A stretch of DNA of 64,000 nucleotides. Origin: Cloeon dipterum (lineage: Eukaryota; Arthropoda; Insecta; Ephemeroptera; Baetidae). Positions 1 through 47,281 of this stretch are shown in pieces. Location of the stretch: assembly GCF_949628265.1 (NCBI RefSeq), contig NC_088787.1, forward strand, positions 12,762,501 to 12,826,500, read 5' to 3'. The notes below the pieces were generated by a model that worked only from the letters and a program-made list of their open reading frames with translations, had not been told where the DNA came from and did not search any database. The translations under genes and the position numbers were made by a program. Positions within the stretch are counted from its first letter, which is position 1, and each line of letters opens with the position of its first letter.

Positions 1-1640
1 AGGGGTCATTTTTTTCCATAGGGAGGGGTCATTTTTTTCCATAGGGAGGGGTCATTTTTTTCCGAAGGGAGGGGTCATTTTTTCCCTAGGGAGGGGTCAT
101 TTTTTTCCATAGGGAGGGGGTCATTTTTTTCCCTAGTGAGGGGTCATTTTTTTCCATAGGGAGGGGTCATTTTTTTCCGAAGGGAGGGGTCATTTTTTTC
201 CATAGGGAGGGGTCATTTTTTCCCTAGTGAGGGGTCATTTTTTCCATAGGGAGGGGTCATTTTTTTTCCATAGGGAGGGGTCATTTTTTTCCATAGGGAG
301 GGGTCATTTTTTTCCGAAGGGAGGGGTCATTTTTTCCCTAGGGAGGGGTCATTTTTTCCATAGGGAGGGGTCATTTTTTTCCATAGGGAGGGGTCATTTT
401 TTCCCTAGTGAGGGGTCATTTTTTTCCATAGGGAGGGGTCATTTTTTTCCGTAGGGAGGGGTCATTTTTTCCATAGGGAGGGGTCATTTTTTTCCATAGG
501 GAGGGGTCATTTTTTCCATAGGGAGGGGTCATTTTTTTCCATAGGGAGGGGTCATTTTTTTCCATAGGGAGGGGTCATTTTTTTCCATAGGGAGGGGTCA
601 TTTTTTTCCGAAGGGAGGGGTCATTTTTTCCCTAGGGAGGGGTCATTTTTTTCCATAGGGAGGGGGTCATTTTTTTCCCTAGTGAGGGGTCATTTTTTTC
701 CATAGGGAGGGGTCATTTTTTTCCGAAGGGAGGGGTCATTTTTTCCCTAGGGAGGGGTCATTTTTTCCATAGGGAGGGGTCATTTTTTTCCATAGGGAGG
801 GGTCATTTTTTCCCTAGTGAGGGGTCATTTTTTTCCATAGGGAGGGGTCATTTTTTTCCGAAGGGAGGGGTCATTTTTTCCCTAGGGAGGGGTCATTTTT
901 TCCATAGGGAGGGGTCATTTTTTTCCCTAGGGAGGGGTCATTTTTTCCATAGGGAGGGGTCATTTTTTTCCATAGGGAGGGGTCATTTTTTTCCATAGGG
1001 AGGGGTCATTTTTTTCCATAGGGAGGGGTCATTTTTTCCGAAGGGAGGGGTCATTTTTTCCCTAGGGAGGGGTCATTTTTTTCCATAGGGAGGGGTCATT
1101 TTTTCCATAGGGAGGGGTCATTTTTTTCCATAGGGAGGGGTCATTTTTTTCCATAGGGAGGGGTCATTTTTTTCCATAGGGAGGGGTCATTTTTTTCCGA
1201 AGGGAGGGGTCATTTTTTCCCTAGGGAGGGGTCATTTTTTCCATAGGGAGGGGTCATTTTTTTCCCTAGGGAGGGGTCATTTTTTCCATAGGGAGGGGTC
1301 ATTTTTTTCCATAGGGAGGGGTCATTTTTTTCCATAGGGAGGGGTCATTTTTTTCCATAGGGAGGGGTCATTTTTTCCGAAGGGAGGGGTCATTTTTTCC
1401 CTAGGGAGGGGTCATTTTTTTCCATAGGGAGGGGTCATTTTTTCCATAGGGAGGGGTCATTTTTTTCCATAGGGAGGGGTCATTTTTTTCCATAGGGAGG
1501 GGTCATTTTTTTCCATAGGGAGGGGTCATTTTTTTCCGAAGGGAGGGGTCATTTTTTCCCTAGGGAGGGGTCATTTTTTTCCATAGGGAGGGGTCATTTT
1601 TTCCCTAGGGAGGGGTCATTTTTTCCATAGGGAGGGGTCA
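1..1640. repeat. Short-period satellite array, 22-24 bp unit
   Basis: About 70 head-to-tail copies of a unit reading AGGGGTCATTTTTTTCCATAGG, with T runs of 6-8 giving periods of 22-24 bp. Variants differ in the five bases after CC or in the A/T/G tail (CCATA, CCGAA, CCCTA, CCCTAGTG). The CCGAA variant falls near 62, 177, 314, 608, 723, 858, 1038, 1197, 1377 and 1536. This gives a 339 bp higher-order period on the right (858/1197/1536 and 1038/1377). On the left the 115+136 bp spacing occurs twice, offset by about 546 bp. The array runs off the left edge. Reading frames through it (RGHFF-type peptides) are a by-product of the period. Confidence 0.97.
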
Positions 1641-1945
1641 TTTTGCTGAAAAAAGTGGCCCCTATGCTGAAAAAAGTGACCCTTCATCACCAAAAAGTGA
1701 CCCTTATGCACCAAAAAGCGACCCCTCTGCACCAAAAAGTGACCCCTATGCTGAAAAAAGTGACCCCTCATCACCAAAAAGTGACCCCTATGCACCAAAA
1801 AGTGACCCCTATGCACCAAAAAAATGACCCCACTGCACCAAAAAATGACCCCACTGCACCAAAAAATGACCCCTATACACCAAAAAGTGACCCCTCTGCT
1901 TGAACCTAAGTGACCCCTCTGCCTGCACCAAAGTGACCCCTCTAC
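1641..1945. repeat. Related satellite in opposite orientation, about 21 bp unit
   Basis: About 14 copies of a 21 bp unit reading AAAAAGTGACCCCTATGCACC or a close variant (GCTG, CATC). TGACCCCTATG is the reverse complement of the AGGGGTCA and CATAGGGG parts of the left array, so the family changes strand at about 1640 and also changes consensus. The units decay toward 1945 (TGCTTGAACCTAAG, TGCCTGCACCAAAG). Confidence 0.93.
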
Positions 1946-2664
1946 TTGCCTTCAAGCCGTGTTTAATTTAACGTAAAATTTGGAAAATCTGAAATTTAAT
2001 TTTCCGTGGTCTTGATTTCATTACTACACATTTTAAAGATAAACTGACCCGCAAAACCCGCACCAAACCCGCGGGTACGGGTCCTGATTTTGCAAATCCA
2101 ATATGGCGGATTGCGGGTGCGGGTTGGCGCTAGGTTGGCGTAGTGCGGTTTGTTGCGGGTTCAAATTTTGAAAAAAGACATGGGCGTGGTTTGGGTGCGT
2201 TACGAAATAAGCGGGTTCGGTGCGGGTTTGGGTTGAAAATTTGTACCCGCGCAATGCACTAATATCTTGTCCTTTTTTCTTCTTAAGCAACATGTAACAT
2301 ATTTTGGTTTGTTTAGTTTCGCAACATCAAGTTTTAGTGGCCATTTTTGCCACATTTAATTTAACTCACAATCATTTGTGCCGACTTTTTGTAAGGGGTA
2401 TTATTAATTCGCAAGAACGCCTGCCGATAATGCATGCAGGCAACTTGGCGAGCATCAGTGTGGCGCGCGTTGCATACAACGCAAATACACAGTTATAATT
2501 ATTGCGAGACAAGTAATGGAAATGATGCTTCTGCTACTTTATCGTTTCCATAGTTAGTCAATGCTATACATCGGGGAAATGTTATTTTTTTTGCTTTTTT
2601 TATCCCTGTCCTCTTGTCATCTCGGACCGGGAAGGGCGCGCACTGCACTAGCACGAATGCTGAA
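1946..2664. other. Non-coding stretch with GC-rich low-complexity patch
   Basis: No supportable gene. Bases 2045-2250 are dominated by repeated CCCGC/GCGGGT words (for example GCGGGTACGGGT, TGCGGGTGCGGGTTGG), a degenerate simple repeat that creates a proline/asparagine-rich shadow frame on the minus strand. The rest is unremarkable AT-rich sequence. Confidence 0.5.
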
Positions 2665-3025
2665 ACCCGCGTCCCAATAACACTGCGAACGGATAACATG
2701 GGCGCACCAGGCCGCACAAGGACCCAGTCCACTCAAGGGCCACTTGCCTCCGCACCAAGGACTGCATTGAAACGCTAGACATTCGTCCCGTGAAGCCAAA
2801 TCACGCATGCTGGAAAGGCGCAAACCAGCAAGTAGCGAGTCGCCTCCCAGCCCGTTGAGCAATTTGAGCATTTCGAGTCACTAAACTAACCACTTTTTGC
2901 CATCTCTGACATTGGTTAGCCAGTATTAGATCTCTGAACTGCTCAAATACCTCCCATTGCTTTGACACTCCTGAGAAATCTGAGAATGCCTTAACAATGC
3001 GAGCCAACGGGCTGGTTTTATTTAT
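2665..3025. repeat. Dispersed repeat, copy 1
   Basis: Shares long matching blocks with 43005-43300 inside an SLC12A9 intron. Shared blocks include TCCCAATAAC, GGTAACATRGG-like, CTGGAAAGG, ACCAGCAAGT, GTTGAGCWATTTGAGCATTT, GAGTCACTAAA and CCTTAACAATGCGAG. Same relative orientation. This copy is about 50 bp longer in its right half. No coding potential or clear terminal repeats were seen, so it is probably a non-autonomous element such as a SINE or MITE. Confidence 0.8.
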
Positions 3026-3676
3026 TCTAATTGAAGAAATCCTAATGAAAATTGTTGGCAATTTTGTGCTCATTTTACTAATTCAAATTTAAATCTGTTC
3101 ATTAATCTTTTCAAGGGGCAGGAAAAACGACAGCTATGACTAGTACGCACATTACACAAAGTCACATTCTTCGATCAGTAGGGAGAAAACATTCTCCTCG
3201 CGTTTGTAGCATATAATGCAACTCATACGAACAGGAAATTTTACATTGCGTATGTGGAAGCAGGCTAAGCCACAGCTCGAATATCCGCTCTCCGACTGAG
3301 AGGCATACCAGAATCCCAAATTCCTTCGATTTCTAAATAATGTTACCATTAGTGTAAGCCATTTTCATATTTTCTGTGGTAAAATGTTTATTTGTTATTT
3401 CTTTTAGCTCCGTCTCTATTAGCGTGTAGGAAGTAGGAAATCGGAGGAGTCTGTCCAAGAAATTATTTGTTGCATGCTATTCCAAAAAATCTTTATTCTC
3501 CTTATTCTGATATTTTTCTCTGGTGCTGAGAGGTAATTTTTTTTTCCATAAATGTTCCATCTTCAACAAAATCTTTAAAATTTCGAAAACCATCTCTGTT
3601 TGTCCGCAGAATTGGTTAGAGTTGTGTTTATAGTCGAGATTTTTTTGCTTAATCTAGTGAAAATCAAGGACAGAAG

Positions 3677-5764
3677 ATGGAGAACAGACTTGATCAGGTA
3701 CCATCGCAAACCTGTAATTCAAATCATTGCGAACGAACTGACGAAATTTTGAAGGACCGACTGGCAATGTATACTGGAGGTTTTTACTATGATTGCACCT
3801 TCAGCGTGGGCAAGAACGAAAATAAAAAGGTTTCACATTTTTTTATTTTCAAATGTATAGCATTTGAAATCATCATTAATTTATTTTAGCAGAATATTTT
3901 AAATCTGGCTTTATATTTGAACGAGCCAGTTGGCTCGCATTCTTTGGCATTGCTAGCATTGTCAAGGCAATGAGAGATATTTATGCATTTCTGGGCTGCC
4001 TAACGTCACACAGATGATCAATTAAATGCCTCGAAATTCTAAAATAACTCATCGGGCTCACTTGTTCCAGCGGCAATAAGGGTCAAATGCTCGGCGTTTC
4101 ATTAAAATACCTCGGTGCGGGGAGGCGAAAAAATCGAAAAAATGGCCACGTTGGGCTACTCGGGACAAAATAAATTATTTGCTTGGCGGTGTAATTGGCA
4201 AGGTAGATGCTGAGCAATGGGTTAAAAATAACAGATAGAGATTTGCATTAAAAAATTAATGAGGTCCGGGGAAGCTCCACTAATATATTTTCATTTGAGA
4301 GTTATTTTCAATCGAGATAGATGAAATGATAACTCAAATTTTACGGTTCATCAATAAGCTAAAAGTATCTTTTAGCTGTTACCTTGATAAATGTTGCATT
4401 TTCATTTCGATTTCCAGCTGTTCAAGTGCCACAAAATAATTCTTGCCGAAGCTAGTGATGCCATTGCTAACATTCTTTTCAAAAACTTTGCTGAAGGGCA
4501 AAACGGAAAAGATGATCCTATTGTTATTGACAATAACCTCCTGCCTGAAACATTTGACTTGGCCATGAGGTAATACCTCGATAAACTTATTTATTCTAAT
4601 TGCTTGCATTGAATTATTAAAATTGATTAATTGAATTTTCAGACATATTTACGGCAATGTTGTTGAGTTTACGACTACCACGCAGGCTTGCGAAATGTAC
4701 AAATTCGCGCATAAATGGATGTTAAAGTACTTGAAGGAAGATGCTGTGAGTGCGTTGAGGAAAACCAAGGCGGACGAGATTCTATTGGTCTATGAAATGC
4801 ACAAGAGTTTAGGGGACAAAGAGGAGCAAAAGTTCTATCTACAGGTTAGAACATCAATTATTCGGCACATTTGATTATCTGAAAAAAAAATGAATTACAG
4901 AGGATCATGTCGGAAACAAGTGAGGTCCTGAGCTCTCCCACCTGGATCAAAGCATCTCCGTCAACTGTGCTTGAAATCTATGAAAAACCATCGCTCGCTG
5001 TGGTTTCCGAGAAGGATCTCTTTGAACCTCTGATCAAGTGGGGTACTGCTTATTCGGAGGCTACCGGCTCAGAGTTGCGATCCACGATTGACGGCGCCTT
5101 AAAGCACATTCGTTTCTTGACAATGTTTTGCCCCGACTTTGCAGAACTATGCGCCGAAAAGGCCAATGTTTTCAGCGCTGAGGAAAAGTTCAAGATCATG
5201 TTGAGTCTTGAACTAGGAAATTCCAAGTACATGCCGCCCGGATTCTCAACAATTGATCAATGGCGTATGATTCAGAATTACTTCCAATTGCAATTTGATC
5301 GTATTTCCCGCGTTAAAGTCACCGAGACAATTGTAAACTGCAAGTCCCCAACGTCTGGCTTCGAATTTTCAGTAAAAGGGAAAGGTAAAATTTTCTTGAC
5401 TCACGTCGATTTGATGTCTCTGCTCCACAAAAACAACCACGGAAAAGAAGTTGAATTTATTTGCCTTTTGAGCACTGATAGCTTTGATAAGATTTTGAAT
5501 GTATTTAAATATAAGGGCATACTTAACGCATACGAACCAGATGTCAAATTCGAGTCACCTGTACTTCTTCAGACAAACACTTGGTACAAAATAACTGTTC
5601 AATATCTACATAGAAATGATTTGACAACTAAACAGTTTAACTACAAATCTAGTCCCCGTTCATGGAAATGGGATTCGGCGGGCGCGGAAGTGCGTGTGAG
5701 GCTACCCTTAAGCCACGTCGACATTGTCTGCATTCAATTGTTTCATGCACCACCCTCTTACTGA
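3677..5764 (+). CDS. BTB-BACK-PHR protein, paralogue A
   Basis: Four exons: 3677-3829, 4418-4569, 4643-4844 and 4901-5764, giving 456 aa. Intron phases are 0, 2 and 0, the same as in the two paralogues near 13 and 18 kb. The N-terminal half is a BTB/POZ fold (FYYDCTFSVG, then LFKCHKIILAEASDAIANIL). It is followed by a BACK region (LREDAV-like helix, VLSSPTWIKASPSTVLEIYE, LFEPLIKWG) and a C-terminal beta-rich PHR-like region. This order is that of the BTBD1/2/3/6 family, whose BTB part recruits Cullin-3 and whose C-terminal part binds substrate; that role here is inferred. The start is the first ATG of exon 1. The donor at 3830 (GTTTCA) is weak but kept by phase and paralogue alignment. This is the most diverged of the three copies. 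Confidence 0.85.
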
Positions 5765-6967
5765 TGTTTTGGGAATAATTTTTTCCACCAATGTATTAGC
5801 AAGTAAGCATTATTTAATTTTGAAAAAACGTAATATTAGATCTATATCTCTCACTTAGTTAGTTAATAGTGCCAATTGTATCAAGCCAAATAATGAGTAC
5901 GATCGGCATTCATATTTTACTCTTCTATTTTAATAATTAATTTTGCTTTTTTGACAAAATATATTTTCATAATATCCATAATTTTATACATGTCTAATTC
6001 TTATAAAAAAGCACTCGATTTTTGGGTGTAAAAAATTAAAATGTATTACAAAAGCACATATACTGCGTCTTTATTAAAAATTTCAAACCTTAATAACGAG
6101 GCCAAATTATAAATTTATCCATTTTCTGTCCACTCGGCGTTGCAATCAAGACATTTAATATGTTAGAATGAAGATCTCCACACAAAAATTAATTGCGAGT
6201 CTTGGACGATATTGCAAAGACCCTGACCCTGATGGCCGCAGGCAGTCTCCGTTGCTTACAAGGAAGCTCTAGGATTCTATATACCTTTCAGTTTTTGGCC
6301 AAACCATTAAATTGAATTCATGTTGCTGTGTAGCCTTCCCTTATAGAGCAGGTTGTCCAAATTTGCATCCGTTCTCCGTTATGCAGATAAGTAGAGCGTG
6401 AATATATTAAAGCTATATATTTTGCTCTATATGCCAAAAAGTGATTTTCTACCAAATTTTCTTCAAAAATGCATTTCTAAATGTGTGAATGGTAGAAATT
6501 TTTCGATTCAATGATTTTGGTTTAAAAAATACCCTACTACTTGATTATTTAAAAATACAGCTTTTATATATATGTACTATAAATATAGCTTTCCCTCTTA
6601 ATTAAAATTTTTAAAATTTAACTTTTTAATTTCATAAATTGAAAATTTCTCTTTTAGGTTTGTCATGTTATAATATATAACCGTACAGTAAAAAACATTA
6701 TCATAGTCTAAAATTAAGGGACCTTTCCGAAACAGCACGGAAACGGAAGTGATATATATGTGATAAAAAATTATCAACCGCACGCCGGGCGCGGCTGATT
6801 GCACGAATGTGAGATTTTTAGATCATAATACACCCGCTGGTGGGCCAGCAGTTTCTAGTAGAATGGAAGAGACAGGGTGACAATCCAGGAAATTTTTCTT
6901 TCGGTTCGTCGGTTGTGAGACCTGAAATATATATTTTCACGCCAACGCTAACTTAACCATTTCTTTC
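5765..6967. other. AT-rich intergenic stretch
   Basis: Very AT-rich with no supportable gene. The ORF at 6598-6804 on the minus strand is a low-complexity I/K/N-rich frame without family resemblance. Confidence 0.5.
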
Positions 6968-7014
6968 GCATTTCTCCCAGGAGAACAGTAAGCTTTGCGG
7001 TAAATTTTGTGAGC

Positions 7015-7024
7015 GTGACGTCAC
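7015..7024. promoter_or_regulatory. Palindromic CRE-like site
   Basis: GTGACGTCAC contains the full cAMP-response-element palindrome TGACGTCA. It lies about 250 bp upstream of the DM13 gene start codon, in a GC-richer stretch (6960-7270) that probably holds the promoter and 5' UTR. Binding is inferred from the motif only. Confidence 0.45.
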
Positions 7025-7273
7025 AGTGAGGCGGAGTCAACGCACTGTTAGTTTGTGTTTTGCGTGTGTTATAGAGGTCAGCTGTCAACCGACTGTACTG
7101 GTACTTGGACGAGAGACAACAACAAGGATAAGAAGGAGAGGTGGTGCCGCAGTAAAGGCAATGCCCTGAGTGCCCATCCCCGTACCCTCTGCAACGGAAT
7201 TTTTGGTCCAGTTTACCTCAGAGCACCTTTTAGAGCATTTTTATTCAAGAGATCAAGCGCGTGAGACGATAAA

Positions 7274-9951
7274 ATGACTGCAGGAACGGAAAGCCTTGTC
7301 GGCCGACGCCTTGTTGTTGAGAGCCTCAAGTCGCTAGCCGTGTGCCTACTTTTCCTTCAAGGTATGCAATAAAATCAGAAATTTGATCGGGATTTTACTG
7401 AAAGCTCTGAAAAACAAAATTATTACAAATTGTAATCCACTTTAAAGTAAACTTATTACCGATAAATAAATAATGTGTAGAATCTATAAGGAAAACAGGA
7501 AATAATATCATACTCATAGTATTATAAATAAATCACATTTTTCAGCTTTTGCAAGTGGGTCTGCCCTTAAAGAACCGTATGGCGTGGAGCTGGGTGACTT
7601 TGAAGACCGAACCGGGCTTGGCGTCACTGGCAAGGTCTACGCGGTTGATGAAAAGAATCTGTACATCAAGGACTTCACCTATGATGGCAAGGAGGATGCC
7701 TTCTTCTGGGTCAGAACTGATGAAAATCCCTCAACGGAAGGCATTATTGTCAAATATCCGGAAGGAGCAAATAATACGGAGTAAGATCCAGTCACAACCA
7801 CAAGAATAGGATACAATCCAACATTTTCAGAGAGCCCCGGAAGCTTCCTGCGTTGAACAACGTCAGCTTTTTACTCAGGCTGCCGCAGAACACAACTATT
7901 AGGAGCATCAAGTCCCTGGCTGTTTGGAACCAGGAGAAAACTGTAAAGAAACTTTTTTTTTTAAAAGTAAAAAATTTTACAAACTGATTGGTTTGATAGG
8001 AAAGTCTTGGAAGCGTGGTCATTCCAAAGGATGTGGCTGTGCCCATGCCTAAAGTGCTGCCTGAGTTTTCACGGCTCGCACACGACCTGCGCTCAGGCAA
8101 CGTCACTATCCTGGACGCCAGGACCTTCCTAATTCCCGACCTGCATTACGACGGTAAAGGACCTGACGCCTACTTCATGGTCGGAACTGGGAGCAAGCCT
8201 CACGGCAAGGGCACCAAAGTCCCCAACGAGCTCGGAGAGTGCGTCCATTGCCCTTTTCCACTCTGAACTTTGCCTTAATTTGGGATTCTGACCGATAGTT
8301 TGAATGTGCTGCGCGCCTACAGAGGTCAAACCATTGCAATCCAGCTGCCAGAAAACCTGACCGTCTATAACATCGACTGGCTGGTCATGTGGTGCATCCA
8401 GTACAAGCACAATTTCGGATATGTTACAATCCCCAAGGATCTCAATGTTCCACCTGCCTTGGGACAAAACAAGATTGGGGTGAGTTCCAACAAAAATGCT
8501 CACTAATGAAATCTCACGATTAAAATAAATTATTTTTGATAATGCTGTGGTAAAAAGGGAGCTATCAACAATTAACGTGGAAGGTTATTTTTCTCTAAAA
8601 CCTAAATTTCAACCCAAGAGAAAGGATTATTCTCTCTAAATGTTTCAAAATGAGTTAATTTTGTGGTATTTTAAAATAATATTTGTGATCATCAGAGTTA
8701 GTTAAATTATTGGTGGCCCAATACAGAGATCTACAGGTACAGGAAAATCCTGTCGAGCCAGAATTTAGCTACAAGTCGATCTGTGTGCTGTGAGAGTAAC
8801 GTTGCTGTCGCAGAAATGCGAGTGCAAACGCTCAAACGAGTGACCGGCGCGCACAGGACCGTTAGCGGCAGCAGAGTGGGTGTGGCAACGTTTAACCTTT
8901 GGCGCTCCTCGGAAATGGTCCGACCAGGACTATGGGACAGTCACAATTAATATTATTTCAAAATACCTAAAACCGTTGCAAATTTACTGGAGAAATGGGT
9001 TTCATTTTATTTTTAATTCTTAGCCTAGAGTTTGTTTGAAATAAACGTTCAAAATTTTGATTTAATTTTTAATTAATTAACTTGGCTGCTCTGCTGACTT
9101 TAAGATTATTCCACCCAAACTAGGGTCAAGACAATTGACTGATCAACCCATTTATTTGCAAATAAATTCTCATCTGACTGGATAGTTTGATTTTTTAGGA
9201 GAAAAAATCGTCTTATGCTGTGGTTGTTGAAATTTTTACATTCTAAAATGTGCTACTATTTACAAAGGAAGTATTGCTCCTCGTTGCCATACTATTATGT
9301 TGTTTTCTCTCGTATTTATGTATTTTGTTAATTTTGAAGGCCACGTTTTGGTTAAAACAAAATATCACAGTGTTTAACAAGCTGTTACTTTTTCTGTAAT
9401 TTATCCATCCCTGCTCCAACGGGCAAGTAATAAAAATCCTATCTCACAATAATAATTCTACATTTAGGTGATATAGTAATTTATATTTTGTTGATGGTAT
9501 GCTGTTCGGGGAGAAGGAGAATTAAGTAAATGTATGAGTAGAAATTTAACAAACACCCAAATGAGCATGAAATTTGTGTAAAATTGCAGTGAAATAAACA
9601 GCCTGCTTAGCACTGAGGAAGTTGCATTTTTATAATTGATTCCTACCCAAAAGTGATAGCCTCTATTAGTGATTTTAATGGTATAAAATGCTCTAAAAAA
9701 TGCAAAAGTAGTATAAATTAAACATAATAATTAGCCTCCAGTTGATTTTCTCCCTATAAAACCCATAAATTGGTTTTTCTAACCGCTGGCCGATCATTTA
9801 AATTCTATTTCAATTGAACTAAATGAAGCAAATCAATCTGATTCCATTTTTTTTTTATCAATTTCAGGTTCTTGTCGCAGGGGCAACACACCACCATTTG
9901 ACTTTCTCCGCTGCGCTTTTGTCTCTTGCGACTTTTATAATTATGTATTAA
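7274..9951 (+). CDS. Secreted double-DM13 protein with probable GPI anchor (Skeletor/Knickkopf-like)
   Basis: Six exons: 7274-7361, 7546-7780, 7831-7942, 8000-8238, 8299-8479 and 9868-9951, all with GT-AG borders and matching phases, giving 312 aa. Residues about 15-34 form a signal peptide (SLKSLAVCLLFLQAFASG). Two DM13 domains follow: FEDRTGLGVTGKVYAVD to about residue 150, then LAHDLRSGNVTILDA onward. Each has the F/L-x-YDGK-x-(P)DAxF-W/M-V signature. The second ends in VMWCIQYKHNFGYVTIP, which carries the family cysteine. The last exon, only 84 nt and 1.4 kb downstream, adds VLVAGATHHH plus the hydrophobic tail LTFSAALLSLATFIIMY. That is the form of a GPI-anchor signal and not of a long cytoplasmic tail. 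Skeletor and Knk also have a DOMON domain after the DM13 pair; none is visible here. Knk-type proteins act in cuticle chitin organisation at the cell surface, and a similar role here is inferred. Confidence 0.85.
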
Positions 9952-12938: not shown

Positions 12939-14826
12939 ATGCCCGACAGCAGTGAGTACACCGACTACAGCAGTGACGAGAGTGAAGAAAGCAATACTCA
13001 ACACCCTCAACCAACTACAAATCGATGTAAAAAATGCGAAATCACGCAAGATTTTCATCAAATGCAACTAGGATTTTATACAGAGAGCGAGTTTTATGAT
13101 TGCTCTTTCCGCGTGGGAAAAGCAGATCACATCAAGGTTGGATTTTCAATAATTTAAAATAAAATTAATGGTTTATTAAACGCAAAATATGCGTGCAACA
13201 CTCTATATTATATAAAGTTTATCAATTTTTACAAACTTTTGCTGATGCTTACCTTTTTAGCTGTACACTTTTGAAAATGATATTTAAAATCATTTCATTA
13301 TTTTCAATTTCGATTATTAAGCAATTTCCATGACTATGGTTTGTTTACAAAATATATTTACTCAAATTTATGTGTTTTATTAGGATTAAGCTGCATTAAT
13401 CCACAACATTGCCTCAAGACAATTTATCTTAAAAGCTTGGAGCACTCCATAGAGTAATTTTTTGTAAAATAGCATTTATGCTACACATTTTGATTTCAGA
13501 TTTTCAAGTGCCACAAATTAGTTCTGGCAGCACAAAGCAAAGCGTTTGCTAAAATGCTCATCGGCTACTTTTCAGAGGGGCATCTAAGTAGAGATGAACC
13601 TATTACATTTAACGATTGCAAACCAAGCACATTTGACTTGGCCATGAGGTGAAATTAACCAAATTTCTAAAAATGCAACATTATTTTAAACTCTGAAAAT
13701 GTGAACAGATTCATTTATGGCAACGTTCAAGAATTTTCGACTATTCCCATGGCTTGCGACGTGTATATATTCGCTCACAAATGGCAGTTCCCGAAATTAA
13801 AACAAGCCGCTATTAACACTTTAAGGAAGTCAAAATCGGACGAGGTCCTGATGGTTTACGAAATGCACGAACTTCTGGGTGATGTTGAAGAGAAGGAGCA
13901 CTATAAACAGGTGTGAAACTTTAAAAGTAAATATGCTTGAAAATCGATCTCAAATATTTACATTTCAGTTCATCTTGGGAAACACAAGCGAGGTTCTGAT
14001 CTCTCCATCTTGGATCCACGCATCGTCATCAACAGTTGAAGAGATTTTTAAGGAACCAGTGTTGAAATTGGCTTCCGAGATGGAACTCTTTGACGCTTTG
14101 GTCCGATGGGGTAAAGAAAATTCTGATTCAGCCCCAAACTTGCGACTGAAAATTGACAGCGCTTTGAAAGAAATTCGTTTCATGACCTTAAGTGCTCATG
14201 TCTTTACTGAATTGTGCAAATCGAATCCTGAGATTTTCAGCTTACAAGAAAAGTATCAAATATTGACTAGCATCTCAATTGGTGATGCAAAGGAAATGCC
14301 TCCCAATTTCAATAATATTTGCTACAAGCGCAGGAAGATATCAACCTTAGACTACAATTTTTTCACTGAACCACCTAAGGTTGAATCTGATACGCTAGTA
14401 AGCTGTGACTCTCCGCACTCGCGCACAATCCTCTCTTTTCATACAGATCAAGTGTACATTGAAAGTGTTGAGCTTGACTGTTTAGTCATGGAAAAAAACA
14501 AAGGACTAGAGGCTAATTTGATTTGCTCCGTGACTGAGTATAAGTCTGGCAAGCAGGTGGCTGTTGTCAAGTTCAAAGGTCTGATACACAAAGATCTAAG
14601 AGTGTTGCATTTTCCTCGGCCAGTTCCGATTAAGAAAAAGACGTATTACTCAATATCTGTTGAATATTTGAACCAAAACCCATTGTGCTCGAGAAAATAC
14701 AGTTATGAACCTGGAACTGTATGTTGCGCCGCTGTTAAAAAAACAAATCTTCAAATTACTGTGAAACAGAAAGATTTGGATTTTCACGTCGATTTGAACA
14801 AAATAAGGTTGCTCGTCCTTCACTAA
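12939..14826 (+). CDS. BTB-BACK-PHR protein, paralogue B
   Basis: Four exons: 12939-13136, 13500-13648, 13709-13910 and 13969-14826, giving 468 aa. The ATG at 12939 (MPDSSEYTDYSSDESEES) lies in the same context as that of paralogue C. A short acidic serine-rich N-terminus is followed by BTB (FYTESEFYDCSFRVGK, IFKCHKLVLAAQSKAFAKML), BACK (ILGNTSEVLISPSWIHASSS, LFDALVRWGKEN) and a PHR-like tail. AATAAA follows at 14860. Exon 4 opens with FILGNTSEV, equivalent to RIMSETSEV in paralogue A. Likely a Cullin-3 adaptor by family. Frame and splice sites are intact, so there is no sign of decay. Confidence 0.88.
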
Positions 14827-17890: not shown

Positions 17891-19658
17891 ATGCCCGACA
17901 GCAGTGAGGAGATTAACAATAGTGAAGTTGCAATCTTGCAATGCCGTCAACCAACTATAAATGAACGCAAAAAAAGCGAAATCACGCAAGATTTTCATCA
18001 AATTCTACTAGGATTTTATATAGAGAGCGAGTTTTATGATTGCTCTTTCCGCGTGGGAAAATACGATGAGATCGAGGTATAATTTTCAATAGTTTAAAAT
18101 CATTCCATTTTCGAATTTGTTTCCTAAGCAATTTTCATGAGTCTTTTTTGTTCACAAAAGTTCTTATATACTCAAATTTAGGTGTTTAGGCTATTATTAT
18201 CTTGATCAAGATTAATATACGCTGCGTTAATCCACATTATTAAGCTAATTAATCTTAAAAGTTTAGACTAGTCCATATAGTAATGTTTTTGTAAAATAGC
18301 ATATTTATGCTACACATTTTGATTTCAGATTTTCAAGTGCCACAAATTAGTTCTGGCAGCACAAAGCAAAGCGTTTGCTAAAATGCTCTTCGGCTACTTT
18401 TCAGAGGGGCATCTAAGTAGAGATGAACCTATTACATTTAACGATTGCAAACCAAGCACATTTGACTTGGCCATGAGGTGAAATTAACCAAATTTCTAAA
18501 AATGCAACATTATTTTAAACTCTGAAAATGTGAACAGATTCATTTATGGCAACGTTCAAGAATTTTCGACTATTCCCATGGCTTGCGACGTGTATATATT
18601 CGCTCACAAATGGCAGTTCCCGAAATTAAAACAAGCTGCTATTAACACTTTAAGGAAGTCAAAATCGGACGAGGTCCTGATGGTTTACGAAATGCACGAA
18701 CTTCTGGGTGATGTTGAAGAGAAGGAGCACTATAAACAGGTGTGAAACTTTAAAAGTAAATATGCTTGAAAATCGATCTCAAATATTTACATTTCAGTTC
18801 ATCTTGGGAAACACAAGCGAGGTTCTGATCTCTCCATCCTGGATCCACGCATCGTCATCAACAGTTGAAGAGATTTTTAAGGAACCAGTGTTGAAATTGG
18901 CTTCCGAGATGGAACTCTTTGACGCTTTGGTCCGATGGGGTAAAGAAAATTCTGATTCAGCACCAAACTTGCGACTGAAAATTGACAGCGCCTTGAAAGA
19001 AATTCGTTTCATGACCTTAAGTGTTAAAGTCTTTACTGAATTGTGCAAATCGAATCCTGAGATTTTCAGCTTACAAGAAAAGTATCAAATATTGACTAGC
19101 ATCTCAATTGGTGATCCAATTTATATGCCTCCAGGTTTCAATAATATTTGCTACGAGCGCAAAGAGAGGTTCAAGGTGCAATATTGTAATTTTTGCTCTA
19201 CAGATGAGGATATATCATCTGAAACGCTAGTAAGCTGCGATTCTCCGCACTCGCGCACAATCCTCTCTTTTGATACAGATCAAATGTACATTGAAAGTGT
19301 TGAGCTTGACTGCTTGGTCATGGAAAAAAACAAAGGACGAGAGGCTAATTTGATTTGCTCCGTAACTGAGTATAAGTCTGGCAAGCAGCTGGCTGTTGTC
19401 AAGTTCAAAGGTCTGATACACAAAGATCTAAGTGTGTTGTATTTTCCTCGGCCAGTTCTGCTTGAGAAAAATACGTATTACTCAATATCTGTTGAGTATT
19501 TGAACCAAAACCCATTGTGGTCGAGAAAATACAGTTATAAACCTAGAGCTGTACGTTTCTGGGACGTTTATAAATATATTTATATAAAACAGAAAAATTT
19601 GGATTCGCACGTCGATTTGAACAAAATAAGGTTTTTCGCCCTTCGCACTGGAGAGTGA
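17891..19658 (+). CDS. BTB-BACK-PHR protein, paralogue C
   Basis: Four exons: 17891-18076, 18329-18477, 18538-18739 and 18798-19658, giving 465 aa with phases 0, 2 and 0. Exons 2 and 3, the beginning of exon 4, and introns 2 and 3 are almost base-identical to paralogue B; only about half a dozen changes were seen over some 690 bp. Exon 1 (MPDSSEEINNSEVAILQ) and the PHR-like tail differ clearly. For example, the linker after MPP reads GFNNICYERKERFKVQYCNF here and NFNNICYKRRKISTLDYNFF in B. BTB, BACK and PHR order is as in B. AATAAA follows at 19667. Confidence 0.88.
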
Positions 19659-31986: not shown

Positions 31987-32515
31987 ATGGCCGCGAACGC
32001 TAATTCGAAACAGGTTTACAAAGGAGGACTTCAGCTGCCTATCTCGAGGATAAGGACCATCATGAAGAGTTCCCCAGACGTGGAAAACATAGGACAAGAT
32101 TCTCTCTTTCTCATTGCTAAAGCAGCGGTATGTTAGCCCACCGTCGAATTATATAATTATAACACAAAATTAAATTTTGCAGGAGTTGTTTATTCAGACA
32201 TTGGCTCAACGAGCTTGTGAAGATTCAAAAGGACTTAAGGATATTGGCTATAACCACGTTGCTGAGGTTATTCAGACCGACGACGAATACGATTTCCTTA
32301 GAGGTATACACTACACAACCACAAATAGAAGCTGATGGATTTATCTTTATTTTTTGTCCTTGACAGAAATCCTGCCAAGAAAAGTTAAGGTGAAAGATAT
32401 TCCTGGTCTTGAGTACAAAACCGAGGGCGATGAGGAAGGAAGTGACGAAGAGGAGGAGCCTACTGAGGAAGGTGCAGAGGAGCAGGGTGTAAGCGAAGGA
32501 GAGGAGTCGTCTTAA
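31987..32515 (+). CDS. Histone-fold protein CHRAC1 / Chrac-16
   Basis: Three exons: 31987-32127, 32183-32303 and 32367-32515, giving 136 aa. The histone fold begins at GGLQLPISRIRTIMKSSPDV and continues IGQDSLFLIAKAAELFIQTL and ACEDSKGLKDIGYNHVAEVI. The LPISRIRTIMKSSPDV block is characteristic of CHRAC-15/16. The C-terminus is a strongly acidic tail (EGDEEGSDEEEEPTEEG). Family members pair with a second histone-fold subunit in the CHRAC chromatin-remodelling complex. AATAAA follows at 32567. Confidence 0.93.
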
Positions 32516-32566
32516 TTTTTAAAAATTAATTGCTATTTATTTCGTGCATGAAGGGTAATTAAAGTC

Positions 32567-32644: not shown

Positions 32645-33396
32645 CTAGTCTTGATGAGGCTTGCCATCTGGTTCTTTCTTATTGGGTCCAAGCTCCTCTG
32701 GAATGCCAAATTCTGAGAAGTGCAGATGGCGCAGCAGGAAGTAAATCTCGGCTACACCAATGACGACTGAGAAGAAGGTGCCCCAAAGGAGCCGAAAGCC
32801 CAGTTCAAGCTCGCCAAAGATGAGTTCAAGGCCAATGACGCCAAAAGCAAAGCCTGCGATGACCGACAACAGGAATTGGCCAACCCAAATCAGTTGCCGG
32901 TTGATCTGCTTCATCTGGAATGCTATGCTCTCCTCTGGCTCTTTCCGCCTTGTCGCATCAACGCTCTGAAGAAATGGAATATTAAAAATTACAGGACGGA
33001 AAAAACAAAAATAATATAAATAAATCAATATTATCACTAAATTATTATTGCTATGTAATAATAAAGACAACTCACCTTGGTCATTTGGCGGTATTCGCGG
33101 GCCTCCTGCTCCCTGCGAAGACGCTGACAACGCGCCTCCAGCTGTGGATTCCTCGGCTGCTGCTGTGGTTCAGGCAGCTCGATGGTGAAACCCAGCTTCT
33201 TGATGGACACGCCAGCTGCGTTGGCTCGCTTCTGCAGCCAGGGAAAGTCGTCTGCGCACAGCCTGTCCTCGCTTCCTGAAGTAAGTTGCTTTATCATCTC
33301 GGGCACAGGCTCGACGGCGGCGTCCGCCTGCTCCTTGATGAAAGCAAGCAGCGCTTCGCTCGGCTTCAGCAACAGGGTGTAATCAGTGGTAATCAT
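32645..33396 (-). CDS. TMEM199 / Vma12-like V-ATPase assembly factor
   Basis: Two exons, 33076-33396 and 32645-32965, of 107 and 106 codons plus stop, giving 213 aa. The cytosolic N-terminal half (LLLKPSEALLAFIKEQ) is followed by a charged helix (CQRLRREQEAREYRQMTK). Two membrane spans follow (LIWVGQFLLSVIAGFAFGVI and LLWGTFFSVVIGVAEIYFLL), then a short hydrophilic tail. This matches the Vma12/TMEM199 family of ER-Golgi membrane proteins that help assemble the V0 sector of the V-ATPase. The start codon lies 11 nt after the stop of BLOC1S5 on the same strand, with A at -3, so it may be the second cistron of a shared mRNA. Confidence 0.85.
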
Positions 33397-33407: not shown

Positions 33408-36400
33408 TCAGTTTTCAGTTAGGTGCAGCTTCTGCTCCAGTTGCCTGTAGTAGTCGCTCAGTTCTTCCTCTCGCTCTTTGAAAGTTTTGTCCACTCGGGC
33501 GCACTTCTCGCCCATATCACGAATGAACGCCTCCCACTCAGCCTTGCGCCCCTCGCGCTTCACCAACAGTGCAACGTCCTGTAAAATGGTTCAAAACACT
33601 GAAGAATGGCCCAAAGTTTCTTGTTTATTAAATTCAAAATATTTTGCTAGGATAAGATATTAAGAAAAATGAATTTACTAACAACTGATTCCTCTTCTTC
33701 TCCTTTCTCGAGAATACTCTCGCACATGCCAACCGTCACCTCAAGGTTGGAGTTGAGGATGGACAACTGGTTGCCACTTGAGTTCTTGATCTTGTCCACC
33801 TGGTAGTCCTTTATCTCAGCAACCTGCTCCAAAACCTTGAAAATTCGCTCAACTTCTCGGTCTTCTCTTTTCTCCTGTAAACACATTGATATAAGATTGC
33901 ATGGACCGAGACAATTAAAATTACTCATGGTGTGGCTTTAAACATCAAATTTTCCTACAATTTCTAACATTCCAAGTATTTTCATACATTTTAAAAACAA
34001 TTTTCAAAACAGACGAGTAGTGAAAAACTGCGACTATTTTCACGTTTTCATTTTATTTGGTCACTATTCACAGTCAAGTCTTTGCTTAAGTAGCTGCACA
34101 GTCTGGTCCACATTGTGCTGCATGACGTGGACCCCTTTAAGAGTGAGGGCGACGAGCTCATTGACGCCGTCGGCCGTGAGGTCGAGGTAGAGCAGCGAGT
34201 AGATGGGGTTTGCGAGCGTCATGCGCTTCAGCAAATGCCACTCCTTGACGCGCTCGCACTGCTTGTATATGAGCAGCTCCTGGCCGTAGGTGCCGATCAT
34301 GATTTCGAGCCGGCCGTCCATGTCCACGTCGGCCAGCAGCACGCACAGCGCGATGTCATGGCTTCCGCTCTCCGGCAGTCCGTGGAACTCGGACAGGCCC
34401 TGCTTTAGCACGTTTGAGTACACCACCGACGGGGACAGCGTGCTCGTCACCACCAGATCCAGCGACTCGTTGTCCAGCGTGAACAGCCGCACCGAAGACA
34501 GCGGACCGCTGTAATTTTTTGTGTGCGTTGAGAGCACTGTGTTGGACGCTACATCCACCTGCACATCAGTCATTTATTAAGTTAGTTGCTGATTTAATTT
34601 TTTCCATTAAGTAAATTTGAAAAAAAAAACGTCTAAAGTGGATCGATACATAGCGACAGGATGGACAGATTTCAAGTAAGGAAACAGTCCTCACCATTTG
34701 AAAAGCATGCTAACTCTACTTTTGGATTCAACTGAATTTTAAATGATGAATAAAATTCATGTATTGGAAACAACAATTTTCCGGGATTTTGCGGTATCAA
34801 TCGTCTTTAAATCAAGGAGCAGACATCATAGATATGCATTTCATCACAATTAATTAAAATAATTTTTATGCTGTCGCACCTGAGTGAGGAGGAGGCAACC
34901 TGACTCGCAGGCGAGCGCTGTGATGCGTCTGTCCTGCTCAAGCGAGTAGACGACGTCAATCCAGAGGACGACACCGCAAGAGAGCTCATACAGCTCTGGG
35001 AAGAGCGGCTGCAGCGGCTCCTCCTGGTAGCAGTGGTTGAGCTTGTCCTCGCGGAACAGATGGATCTGCTCGTCACCGCCAGAGAGCAGCCACACGATCT
35101 CGCGGCTGGCGGGAAGCGGTGTGTGGAACAGGTGGTACGGTGCGAACGACAGCTCGAGCGAGAAGCAGTTCTGGGCGACGCTGTCGAGCAGCGAGTCGCC
35201 CGCCTCGCCCCATTCCGAGTAGACGTTGAGGAAGGTCTGGCTGGGCGTGGGCCGGCCGGCCATCGCTGGCTTGACGATCGTGATGCCGACCACCAGGTCG
35301 TCGGCCTGCGTGTGGAACGCGTCCAGGGCGATGATCTCGGCGCCGTTCGGGATGTAGGTGAACGGTACCTCTTTGACCGAGGCCTGGCACTGCTCGCCCG
35401 GCAGACTCTGCAGCTCCAGCGAGAAAACCTTGCGCCGCAGCGACGCCACCAGCAGGCGCCGCGCGCCACCCACGCCCTCCACCGTCGCCAGCGAGTACAC
35501 GTTGCCCTGCGAGGGCAGCGGGAAGTAGTGCACGTCCGACAGCCCGATCATCGTCCCTGCGAACAAGCCACCACGAGTGTCAGAAGTCGCGCGCGTGCTT
35601 CCAGTTCAGGGCAAAGATCAAGGCATGCACCACAAAAACACTCGAGTCCCGCACATTTTGTTGCGTGAAAATTTTTAATTAGAGTTACAGGAATATTCGG
35701 TTTTATAAAAAAAATAACAATTATGTTTTAATCACACACTTTTGCTTTGTGTAAATGGTCATCAAAAGATCAGCAGTGAATTTTTTCAGTGCTTGCTGAA
35801 CGGCATCAATTGGCGTGGAAGGTGGCGTCGGCGTCGTCGGTGGCGACCTGCTTGTGGGCGAAGTAGAGGAAGCAGATGGAGGAGAGGGCGCTGACGAGGA
35901 AGATGACGTCAAACCAACGGTGGTAGAAGTTGAACTGCAGGTCACCGAGCACCTGCGTGATGATGGTGCGGTACTCGGCCGGCATGTTCATGCGCATCAG
36001 CAGCACAGAAGAGACAAAGTACATGCCCATGATCTGTGCAAGCAACAGCACAATCACGTTGGACGACTTGCTGCTCGAGATGGCATAGAAGAACTTGGTC
36101 AGCGTCAGCAGCAGCCCGCGGATCGAGGTGACCACAATGCAGCCGACCAGTAGGAAGGACACGTGCTGCGACCAGAAGGCCACGTCCACATCCAAGCCCA
36201 GCCAGTGCACAGCGATTTCAAGGCCACGGGTCACTGGGTCTTTCTTGCCCACGCGGTCGAACACGATGTTGATCGTCGAGATGAAGATCTTCCATGTGCA
36301 GTACAGGGAGAAGAAGTAGCCTAGCAGGTTGAAGTACCTGAAATCAAGCCAGTAATGAAGCGAACCATTCGTTGACAAAATGCCAAACAAGTAATTTAAT

Positions 36401-38066
36401 TATCCAGGCGCTTCCAAAGAGAAAAAAATAATGTATCAGAGGACACATACTTGCCCTGCCAGGTCTTGGCCCACTCGACGCGCTCCTGCATGTTGCGCAT
36501 GCTGTGCAGCTCGAGGAAGAGCTGCCTGCTGAGCTCCTCAAGGCCCCTTGCCTCGGATTGCAGCTGCCGCACATTCTCCGTTGGGGCTGACACTGAAGAT
36601 CGGAACAGGCCCCAAAGACCGGATGCGCCACCAGTGGTGCCAGGAGCCACTGCAGGCCGCTTGCTGGCCAGGGCGATGCGCTTTTTCTTGGCCAAGATCA
36701 TGTCCATGGTCTGCAGGAGCTTTCGCTCGAGCGACTGAACGTCTGAGTCTTGCACCTTCATAATGGAATTTCATTAGATTTCTTTATTATTTCAAAATAA
36801 TTAGCATTAATTTAAAAAATTAAGAAGAATGGGTTTAATTATTTTTCAATTTTAAACAATTTTTATTTTAAGTGTTTAAACTCTCAAAATTGTTTTAATA
36901 TCGTGCGAGATTAATTTCTTTTGTAAATCAAATTGGAAATTTTATTATTTTCAAAGCTATACTGTTGCATAAAATATTATTTAAATTCGTTTCTTATAAC
37001 AAATCTGCTAGTAAATTATTTTGAGAAATCAGTTAAATTAGCACCTTGCGCATGAAGTAGGCCATGGAGGTGTAGGGGTAGTTGACGGCGCCAAAGCCGG
37101 ACAGCACGGCCATGATGGTGACACCGATGACGCCAACCCTGCTGATGGCCTGCTCGATGGAGAAGAGGCCTTTGCTGGGGCTGAGCAGCGGGAAGGGGTC
37201 GCCGAGGCGCCAGAAGAAGTAGCTGAACGCGAGCCACACGATGATGGTGAGCGGCCGCACCCATCGGTCCCTGACGAAGCTGATGCTACGCACGATGAAG
37301 TAGCCTATGTAGAAGGGCACCAGCACGATGGTCATGAAGAGGATGAGGTAGAGCACGAAGTGCCACTGGAAGTAACGCGTGCTCTGATCGAGGAAACCGA
37401 CGATCTCGAAGATGATCAGCTCGAACAGCGTGCACGACAGCGAGAAGGTGGCCGAGAAGAGCAACTGCACCAGCGCGTGGTGCACTTCGTAGTCGCGGAA
37501 CAGTTTTTTCACGAAGAACACCCAGCCGCCGACGAAGAAGCCCACTTGCGAGATCAGGATGATGCAACTGTCCTCCAGGAAACCCATTTTTTTCGCTATC
37601 AACCGAATTCAAACGCACAGCTGCAAAGTTTTGCTCGACTGTTACACACACTCGGAATGGGAAAGTGAACCTGCTCAGGGGCCCGGAACCTAAATACGCA
37701 TTAAATCTCGACCACACCAAGAGTAGAAATTCAACGTCATGGCTTGGAAACACCGGAACCGAAATGGAAACCGGAGAGCTAATAATTATAAATCAAATTC
37801 CGAATCCGTCCATTTAGGTTCCAGTTCCGTTCCATCGCATTAATTGGCTGGTTTACCTCGAACTCCTTCAGGAAGAATTTCACCTCTCCTTGCACGAAAG
37901 GCCTGTGATCAAACAGTCTCGACCAGATTTCGCCGACGTCTAAAGCAAACGCTTATCACTCAACCACATCATATGGATAGGTCACATGACATTTAAAATA
38001 AAATGACCGATCAAAAATTAATACATTACTTCAGCCTCTTTACGAACCTTTAGGCAGTGAGGTCAT
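33408..38066 (-). CDS. BLOC-1 subunit 5 (muted homologue)
   Basis: Four minus-strand exons: 38048-38066, 37857-37939, 33683-33874 and 33408-33578. Phases are 1, 0 and 0, giving 154 aa. The exon at 37.9 kb encodes DVGEIWSRLFDHRPFVQGEV and KFFLKEFE. Exon 3 continues EKREDREVERIFKVLEQ. The last exon has RKAEWEAFIRDMGEKCARVD and a coiled-coil end. The DLGEI-SRLxDHRPxxQGE-KEFEEKR order is the BLOC1S5 signature, so exons 4 kb apart belong together. Intron 2 (33875-37856, 3,982 bp) contains two complete same-strand genes, GPHR and KPTN. BLOC-1 acts in biogenesis of lysosome-related organelles and endosomal sorting. A start at 33928 reading through the exon 3 acceptor would also be open, but lacks the conserved N-terminus. 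Confidence 0.88.
34064..35551 (-). CDS. Kaptin (KICSTOR subunit)
   Basis: Two exons, 34880-35551 and 34064-34558, phase 0, giving 388 aa. Matches kaptin along its length. Landmarks are SQGNVYSLATVEG near the N-terminus, then VPFTYIPNGAEIIALDAFHT, LVVGITIVKP, FLNVYSEW, LDSVAQNCFSLELSFAPYHL, WLLSGGDEQIHLFREDK and LFPELYELSCGVVLWIDV. The C-terminal part has DVDMDGRLEIMIGTYGQELL and LDLTADGVNELVALTLKGVH, the FG-GAP/beta-propeller-like repeats. Kaptin is part of KICSTOR, which tethers GATOR1 to lysosomes in amino-acid control of mTORC1. The exon 1 start at 35551 follows an AG, so a 5' UTR exon may exist. The gene lies entirely within an intron of BLOC1S5. Confidence 0.93.
35806..37587 (-). CDS. 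Golgi pH regulator (GPHR/GPR89)
   Basis: Three exons: 37045-37587, 36451-36755 and 35806-36337, giving 459 aa, close to the family's usual length of about 455. The multi-spanning N-terminal half begins MGFLEDSCIILISQVGFFVG. It has WRLGDPFPLLSPSKGLFSIE and GVIGVTIMAVLSGFGAVNYP. A cytosolic loop with coiled coil follows (SLERKLLQTMDMILAKKKRI, VRQLQSEARGLEELSRQLFL). The C-terminal membrane block has LGYFFSLYCTWKIFISTINI, VFDRVGKKDPVTRG and ISRQ-type segments to CFLYFAHKQV. Members are Golgi anion channels that support lumenal acidification. The gene is co-oriented with and nested inside the large BLOC1S5 intron, 254 bp upstream of KPTN. Confidence 0.95.
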
Positions 38067-38966
38067 AGCCTGGACTCATTGAAATTTCCAACCGCAATGT
38101 ATAGCAGCCCTTATTCCAAATTATTTCCGTCAGTTTTACATCTCCACGTCTGTGTTTACCGTCCAGCCCACAAAAAACAGTCTGGTGTCTAATGTCAGCA
38201 ACTATGGAGGATCAGCTGTACCTGGCTGTACCGGAGCGGGAGCTTTAAATTTCTCATGGCAGGAACCCATAGAGAAACTGGATTTTTAAATATGGCGGCC
38301 TGCGGGCCGTATCTTCTACGATTCCCCTGGTGGCTAACAACTGACTGACTCAACCTGGGGCTGGGTGAGAAGTGGAGTGGAAAGGAAGGGAGAAGGGGGT
38401 GCTTTTTAATAAGAACGAGAGCTACTCTCATGACCAAAATTATAAAAAAATGCTAAAATATAAAACCTTTTATTTTTAAAACGACAAGAAAAAATGTAAA
38501 TTTTTGCTTTTTACCTTATTTTTTTCAGTTAAGTTTCTATATATTTTATGATAATAATGAAGTCCATTTTGCCCACTCTGCTTCTTCGGCTTTATCACTC
38601 ACCTTCATAAGAAAGTTCTACTCGTTGCAAATTATAAAATCTATTCCTATTGATATCTAATTTAGAATGGAAAGGCTGTTATCTTGCAGAAAAAACTAGA
38701 TTTTATTATTTTTGCTGTGCAAAAGAATTATCCTTTATCCGTCCATTGTTTACAAATATATGTACTCACATCAATGGAAATTTAAGAATTTAAGATAAAT
38801 ATACATAGATCCAAATTAATCACATAACATTATGTGTTTAGCAAACGTAATAAAATTCATAAATTAATAACAACACAATACACGACGTGTTGATTAACAA
38901 GAAAATTAAAATTTAGTCTTTATATCGCAGTAGATATCCAATTTCCCCCATGACAAAAGATGTGCA
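38067..38966. other. Intergenic stretch
   Basis: About 900 bp between BLOC1S5 exon 1 and the SMCO4 stop, AT-rich toward the right. No gene seen. It probably includes the BLOC1S5 promoter (left) and the SMCO4 3' UTR (right). Confidence 0.5.
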
Positions 38967-39155
38967 TTACGAATCCATCACCACCTCCACCCGGGGCCTA
39001 GTCTTGAAATACACGAAGGCGACGAGCAGCATGAACAGACCGGCGATGACGGGCACCACCACAGTGAAAACCTTTTCCTTGTTCTCAATGAACTCCTTCT
39101 TGCGCTCTTTCTTCTGCTTGTTCGTCTCCTTCACTTTTCCCTTCAACTGACGCAT
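38967..39155 (-). CDS. Single-pass membrane protein SMCO4
   Basis: A 62-residue single-exon CDS beginning MRQLKGKVKETNKQKKERKK. One transmembrane segment (VFTVVVPVIAGLFMLLVAFV) is followed by YFKTRPRVEVVMDS. The MRQLKGK start, basic coiled stretch, single span and xTRP motif match vertebrate SMCO4, which is of similar size. Function is unknown. The ATG lies 22 nt after a TTTTTTTTTCAG acceptor on the minus strand, so a 5' UTR intron is likely. Confidence 0.9.
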   Translation of the reverse strand: MRQLKGKVKETNKQKKERKKEFIENKEKVFTVVVPVIAGLFMLLVAFVYFKTRPRVEVVMDS

Positions 39156-47160: not shown

Positions 47161-47281
47161 GTCTTATTGGCTTCTCCCGCTTCTCCGAAGTCCCTTCCAC
47201 TTCCACTTCCTCCAAGCAGTGCCTGCTGTTAGCCAATGAGATGGCGGGATTGTGTCACGTGACTGCTCGAACTGCCCACTG
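47161..47281 (+). promoter_or_regulatory. Promoter-like block with CCAAT, YY1-like and E-box motifs
   Basis: Contains AGCCAATGAG (CCAAT box, about 47231), GATGGCGGG (YY1-like, about 47240) and the 10-bp palindrome GTCACGTGAC (47254-47263), which includes a CACGTG E-box. It lies immediately before a perfect hairpin and 0.5 kb upstream of a signal-peptide-like exon. A promoter is inferred. Confidence 0.4.

Follow-up and report, generated by a model that had tools for sequence, protein, structure and literature searches.

An apparently dicistronic BLOC1S5-TMEM199 host with GPHR and KPTN nested in the same orientation within one intron in Cloeon dipterum

Can a gene remain intact when one of its introns holds two other complete genes that run in the same direction? 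The question is raised by a 64-kb stretch of the Cloeon dipterum genome (contig NC_088787.1, positions 12,762,501 to 12,826,500; here called the window), in which a first-pass annotation had described BLOC1S5 as split by an intron of 3,982 bp that contains GPHR and KPTN. In such a nested model, the host would have to read through two polyadenylation [poly(A)] sites and leave five exons out of its mRNA. All positions below are coordinates of the 64-kb window, and the genes BLOC1S5, GPHR, KPTN, and TMEM199 are all on its minus strand. Judging from the sequence, we consider it probable that BLOC1S5 and TMEM199 form a dicistronic host, the second intron of which carries a GPHR-KPTN block that is spliced out of read-through transcripts.

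The split of BLOC1S5 was borne out to the base by the minus-strand sequence, exact positions, and spliced models. The intron from 37856 to 33875 measures exactly 3,982 bp, and the upper bound that had been proposed for the locus, 38066, coincides with the start of a small first exon encoding MTSLPK/D (38066 to 38048). The parts of the gene are as follows.

38048 to 38066, minus strand: BLOC1S5 coding exon 1, preferred; MTSLPK, phase 1; donor AAG/gttcgt, 7/9
38222 to 38270, minus strand: BLOC1S5 coding exon 1, alternative; MGSCHEKFKAPAPVQP, phase 1; donor CAG/gtacag, 6/9; open spliced frame
37857 to 37939, minus strand: BLOC1S5 exon 2; DVGEIWSRLFDHRPFVQGEVKFFLKEFE, ending in KFFLKEFE; acceptor ctttag/, donor GAG/gtaaac
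33875 to 37856, minus strand: BLOC1S5 intron 2; 3,982 bp; contains GPHR and KPTN; in-frame join KEFE/EKR
33683 to 33874, minus strand: BLOC1S5 exon 3; Pfam Muted; begins EKREDREVER; acceptor tttacag/GAG, donor at 33683 or 33686
33408 to 33578, minus strand: BLOC1S5 exon 4, coding part; stop codon TGA at 33410 to 33408

The sequence directly 5' of the exon 3 start at 33874 is atgtgtttacag, with an AG acceptor. Exons 2 and 3 join in phase 0, and splicing them gives a frame that stays open from its start to the TGA. However, open frames following an AG prove little by themselves: of the 237 AG dinucleotides that follow the exon 2 donor as far as 33400, 70 open frames of at least 60 codons, mostly within the coding regions of the two guests. 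It is therefore homology spanning the junction that carries the case for a single gene. The spliced BLOC1S5 protein matches positions 2 to 146 of the 146 positions in Pfam Muted (PF14942), with 158.9 bits for the preferred exon 1 and 157.3 bits for the longer one. Exons 1 and 2 alone, with the longer exon 1, cover positions 2 to 30 (55.6 bits), and a protein beginning at 33928 and continuing through exons 3 and 4 covers positions 29 to 146 (87.3 bits). By sequence, the two halves are complementary pieces of one gene, the parts of the profile abutting at the splice sites. Genome searches, in which the best candidates only were scored, covered 190 Mb in 10 contigs (C1 to C4, 36 to 43 Mb each). 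With the spliced protein (longer exon 1), four matches were scored and all fell at the window locus; among the candidates scored, the exon 2 DNA matched nothing but itself, and no other N-terminal piece of BLOC1S5 was found. The exons that flank intron 2 thus belong to one gene, as complementary Muted pieces with an in-frame splice and no second copy found. Against the PDB, BLOC1S5 gave just one chance match, to a repeat protein (E 0.041).

The first-pass annotation had allowed that BLOC1S5 might instead initiate at 33928 or use another N-terminal exon. Initiation at 33928 is disfavored, as it would cost profile positions 2 to 28 and 70 bits, and another N-terminal exon is likewise disfavored by the search just described. 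For exon 1 itself, 14 pairings of an ATG with a donor between 38965 and 37940 (up to 400 bases) give a frame that continues into exon 2, and the donor of the 38066-38048 model has the top score among them (7/9). On these sequence scores we prefer that model to 38270-38222; the gain in the Pfam match is small.

All three GPHR exons and both KPTN exons do lie on the host strand between 37856 and 33875, as had been proposed, each with a possible poly(A) signal nearby in a motif scan.

35806 to 37587, minus strand: GPHR (Golgi pH regulator); exons 37587-37045, 36755-36451, and 36337-35806; 459 amino acids
35727 to 35732, minus strand: ATTAAA, possible GPHR poly(A) signal, within the host intron
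34064 to 35551, minus strand: KPTN (kaptin, KICSTOR); exons 35551-34880 and 34558-34064; 388 amino acids
34052 to 34057, minus strand: AATAAA just 3' of the KPTN stop, within the host intron

Both guests look complete by sequence. GPHR matches the Pfam families ABA_GPCR (8.4e-42) and GPHR_N (3.4e-27), and KPTN matches kaptin chains in the PDB over residues 11 to 385 (E 1.4e-74), its Pfam result being a single FG-GAP match below threshold. The window copy is the sole full-length copy among the scored genome matches of GPHR, the other five being partial, and likewise among those of KPTN. The whole coding sequence of each guest is contained in one host intron, which makes both of them nested genes. 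The remaining introns of BLOC1S5, GPHR, KPTN, and TMEM199 are 104 to 321 bp long. Subtracting the span from the GPHR start to the KPTN stop leaves 458 bp of host intron, a length in keeping with an ordinary intron that received a two-gene block, the direction of the change being one that we infer.

The nested model was well supported but incomplete, since it overlooked a fourth gene that begins almost where BLOC1S5 ends. The ATG of TMEM199/VMA12, at 33396, follows the last base of the BLOC1S5 stop codon, 33408, by 11 bp.

33076 to 33396, minus strand: TMEM199/VMA12 coding exon 1; Pfam Vma12, 4.9e-27
32645 to 32965, minus strand: TMEM199/VMA12 exon 2; stop codon TAG
32536 to 32541, minus strand: AATAAA, 3' of the TMEM199 stop; the first AATAAA or ATTAAA past the BLOC1S5 stop (motif scan)

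On the minus strand, the motif scan found neither AATAAA nor ATTAAA from the stop of BLOC1S5 to that of TMEM199; one lies farther upstream, in BLOC1S5 intron 3, at 33629. Two complete frames, identified by Pfam Muted and Vma12, stand in tandem with BLOC1S5 upstream and a small gap between them, which is the arrangement of a dicistronic unit, and there is little space in which TMEM199 could have a separate promoter.

Under the favored model, the host transcription unit would start upstream of 38.07 kb and end past 32.54 kb. GPHR and KPTN would have been inserted as a tandem two-gene block into host intron 2, the earlier length of which was probably some hundreds of bases. Polymerase from the host promoter would cross both guests, the donor at 37857 would be joined to the acceptor at 33874, and the guest exons and poly(A) signals would leave with the intron. 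The mature host mRNA would encode BLOC1S5 and then TMEM199, and GPHR and KPTN would be expressed from their own promoters inside the intron. If this is true, the transcript of one promoter passes two complete foreign genes, with poly(A) signals of their own, before it reaches the exons of two other proteins, and the locus would offer a compact natural test of splicing versus premature polyadenylation and of coregulation among nested neighbors.

Nesting on the same strand is already known; a dicistronic host with two multiexon guests is a variant, unusual but not unprecedented. Like the window locus, the cholinergic ChAT/VAChT locus has a same-strand guest in a host intron and related functions; it also has a shared leader, which in the window locus would be hypothetical. 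In humans, the host of the nested gene KTI12 is TXNDC12. As in the tandem nesting of human KTI12, described in excerpts of PMC3192792, the guests run in the direction of the host, which would read through them and splice around them; unlike KTI12, the window has two multiexon guests in one intron and an apparently dicistronic host. That text also reports intron retention, exonization, and cryptic polyadenylation as possible effects of human tandem nested genes on their hosts, so that a partial loss of host transcripts would be expected here. In Drosophila, according to excerpts of PMC3786989, about 6% of genes are nested, frequently in the opposite direction. The gene 2mit within tim2 is, like GPHR and KPTN, an entire protein gene inside the intron of a host, but it lies on the opposite strand (PMC3786989). 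Literature searches on the nesting of BLOC1S5 with KPTN and on muted of Drosophila as a dicistronic BLOC-1 gene found nothing.

For the host, the closest likeness is with Drosophila. CG7071 and CG34131 are given as two gene identifiers for the same transcript, with CG34131 as the upstream frame of 157 amino acids, one of the upstream frames with conserved peptides under purifying selection (PMC2276209, from excerpts). PMC10452791 names muted as part of a bicistronic unit and CG7071 as the homologue of Tmem199. The window locus shares with muted (CG34131)-CG7071 the same two families in the same order, the BLOC1S5 frame first, and a motif of the coordinated lysosomal expression and regulation (CLEAR) type near its head. 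It differs from that unit, as described in the excerpts of PMC2276209 and PMC10452791, where guests go unmentioned, in being interrupted by GPHR and KPTN. By analogy and sequence, the BLOC1S5-TMEM199 pair looks like a member of the muted-CG7071 type of bicistronic unit with guests inside, which, if true, suggests that the dicistronic pair extends beyond the flies of the cited papers. With the pairing seemingly inherited, all that is left to explain is how GPHR and KPTN came to lie there, and chance insertion would suffice.

The CLEAR-type motif is found within the first intron of BLOC1S5.

37981 to 37990, minus strand: CLEAR-type MITF/TFEB motif GTCATGTGAC; the window has no other exact copy of this 10-mer

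As excerpted, PMC10452791 places the motif TCACATGA/TCATGTGA near the 5' ends of genes for the vacuolar-type H+-ATPase (V-ATPase), with enrichment in first introns, and reports a CLEAR motif 275 bp downstream of the start site of Drosophila CG7071. By its sequence, the TCAYRTGA core in the first intron of BLOC1S5, an 8-mer core as in PMC10452791, is of the CLEAR/MITF kind. For comparison, V-ATPase loci were located with Pfam PF01813, PF00137, and PF03179, the subunit names being our interpretation of the matches. The 8-mer was present in three of four such loci, at 326 bp (D), 683 bp (c), and 160 bp (c'') upstream of the first matched exon, and was absent from 2.8 kb at the locus read as subunit G. 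It was also absent within 1.5 kb of a fifth locus with a c-subunit domain (C2:19.77 Mb), which is perhaps a mitochondrial ATP synthase. A fully palindromic site of the CLEAR/E-box type, GTCACGTGAC, occurs at 47254 to 47263, about 9 kb from the locus.

Core promoter motifs were too frequent to decide anything.

38339 to 38348, minus strand: a pair of overlapping TCAKTY hexamers resembling initiators, with first bases at 38348 and 38344; the host may start here, weak (motif scan)

TCAKTY occurs 1.6 times per kb on the minus strand and TATA-like sequences 1.7 times per kb, one of the latter at 35707, 156 bp ahead of the start codon of KPTN. The CpG profile gave no clear promoter pattern.

Several observations weigh against the dicistronic nested model or weaken its supports. 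Translation of TMEM199 as a second frame would not be straightforward, as 11 nt is short for reinitiation, and two further in-frame BLOC1S5 AUGs precede the TMEM199 frame. A depletion of out-of-frame AUGs in BLOC1S5 was looked for as a sign of leaky scanning: with the longer exon 1, one such AUG was observed and 1.9 were expected (P 0.39), which is not significant; the preferred exon 1 model has none in 476 nt. A promoter for TMEM199 may lie within BLOC1S5 exons 3 and 4. Two models of exon 1 remain, differing only before the conserved aspartate. A search with GPHR of genome contig and viral contig collections found no relatives. Support from the CLEAR motif is modest, and its closeness is a post hoc observation. 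The 64 kb contain the 8-mer 5 times versus 3.6 expected, so that only the place of the motif is telling, and in the V-ATPase scan it was found 3 times in about 11.5 kb of upstream DNA versus about 0.9 at the window rate. From its position, the motif at 37981 to 37990 may serve GPHR instead, the start codon of which is 394 bp downstream. Finally, the unspliced continuation of exon 2, a 59-amino-acid frame, is not penalized by Pfam Muted (58.8 bits, positions 2 to 49), and exon 2 alone is thus no proof of its donor.

That unspliced frame would also suit a broken host, in which the insertion of GPHR and KPTN cut BLOC1S5, exons 1 and 2 give a short product, and TMEM199 and a truncated BLOC1S5 are expressed from a promoter at about 33.9 kb. 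An open frame, MSNFNC..., begins at 33928, a short way 5' of exon 3 and in its reading frame, the stretch that separates the two halves contains AATAAA and ATTAAA hexamers, and hosts of tandem nested genes can terminate prematurely (excerpts of PMC3192792). Yet both halves retain conserved sequence and splice sites at the junction of the profile, whereas decay would be expected in a broken gene unless it was broken very recently, and we think a broken host unlikely. A single unit is another reading, with one promoter upstream of 38 kb shared by BLOC1S5-TMEM199, GPHR, and KPTN, the products being set by alternative splicing and poly(A) choice in the style of a shared leader. It would draw on an acceptor-like cag just 5' of the KPTN start (ending at 35557), which the alternative BLOC1S5 exon 1 would join in frame by eye, and on the CLEAR motif near the head; but an in-frame join arises by chance one time in three, the TATA-like sequence at 35707 lies ahead of KPTN, common as such sequences are, and the 269 bp upstream of GPHR leave room for a promoter. 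We rate this reading as very unlikely.

A shared head would make some functional sense. BLOC1S5 acts in lysosome-related organelles, TMEM199 in V-ATPase assembly, GPHR in Golgi acidification, and KPTN in KICSTOR at the lysosome, so that the four products share a sphere of lysosome and Golgi acidification and lysosomal signaling. Because the four genes are related in function, one can envisage an operon-like module in which a single CLEAR (MITF)-controlled head drives all four, the choice between splicing over the intron and use of inner acceptors or poly(A) sites setting the ratio of V-ATPase assembly, Golgi pH, and KICSTOR-mTORC1 products; as a conjecture from gene content, it has a small chance of being right. 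Misplacement of the GPHR-KPTN block in the assembly would, on its face, be in keeping with the further, decayed copies of the block in the genome. However, those copies are pieces of 67 to 88% identity inside a transposon, and their pooled collinear order, GPHR, KPTN, the 3' part of BLOC1S5, TMEM199, and the region downstream, is that of the same neighborhood, although the side between exon 2 and GPHR is not covered. An artifact of this kind is barely credible.

The transposon came to light as extra partial matches in the genome searches with GPHR and KPTN, which lie in elements of about 5.5 to 6.3 kb. Seven copies have both ends, which are inverted (CCCCAGGTGCC...) and in L022 are 91% complementary over 33 nt; a 2-bp target repeat was seen by eye in six of the seven.

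L022, positions 1485 to 7257 of its stretch: two-ended copy
L023, positions 2625 to 8392: two-ended copy
L024, positions 2976 to 8670: two-ended copy
L025, positions 3006 to 8706: two-ended copy
L026, positions 1835 to 7289: two-ended copy
L027, positions 2324 to 8593: two-ended copy
L029, positions 1559 to 7064: two-ended copy
L013, L028, L030, and L031: further places with the block

The block was seen in 11 places on C1 to C4, 10 of them in the 10-kb stretches L022 to L031 and the other in L013. The left end is present in all of these places except L030, and genome-wide in 14 places on C1 to C5 (16 matches). The elements carry collinear, internally deleted pieces of window positions 36365 to 32389 (about 4 kb), namely, the end of GPHR intron 2, KPTN, the region of BLOC1S5 intron 3 and exon 4 (five copies), TMEM199 (one copy), and the region past the TMEM199 stop; the internal deletions differ between two subfamilies. 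By its sequence, what the element captured is genomic DNA and not a transcript. The same pieces suggest that GPHR, KPTN, the 3' part of BLOC1S5, and TMEM199 were already neighbors when they were copied; on BLOC1S5 exons 1 and 2 the copies are silent. No transposase was recognized in the open-frame lists of L022 and L026, frames for which no Pfam search was made. The copies in L022 (C2:1425484-1431256) and L023 (C3:1957624-1963391) are 99.9% identical over 5.77 kb on different contigs, which points to recent movement.

Elsewhere in the window, Rfam at the gathering threshold and ARAGORN gave no matches, and a Pfam scan of 30 open frames assigned a family to six. The immediate upstream neighbor of BLOC1S5, in the same orientation, is a single-exon gene with Pfam DUF4519 (38967 to 39155, minus strand; 3.2e-26), which we take to be SMCO4-like. 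A spliced small protein with an acidic tail is encoded at 31987 to 32515 on the plus strand, tail to tail with TMEM199 and with the two stops 130 bp apart; by eye, we presume it to be of the histone-fold CHRAC1/POLE4 type. Two open frames of 324 and 325 amino acids (13852 to 14823 and 18681 to 19655, plus strand), 4.8 kb apart and each with a BACK domain at residues 37 to 121, are probably tandem-duplicated kelch-type genes by their sequences.

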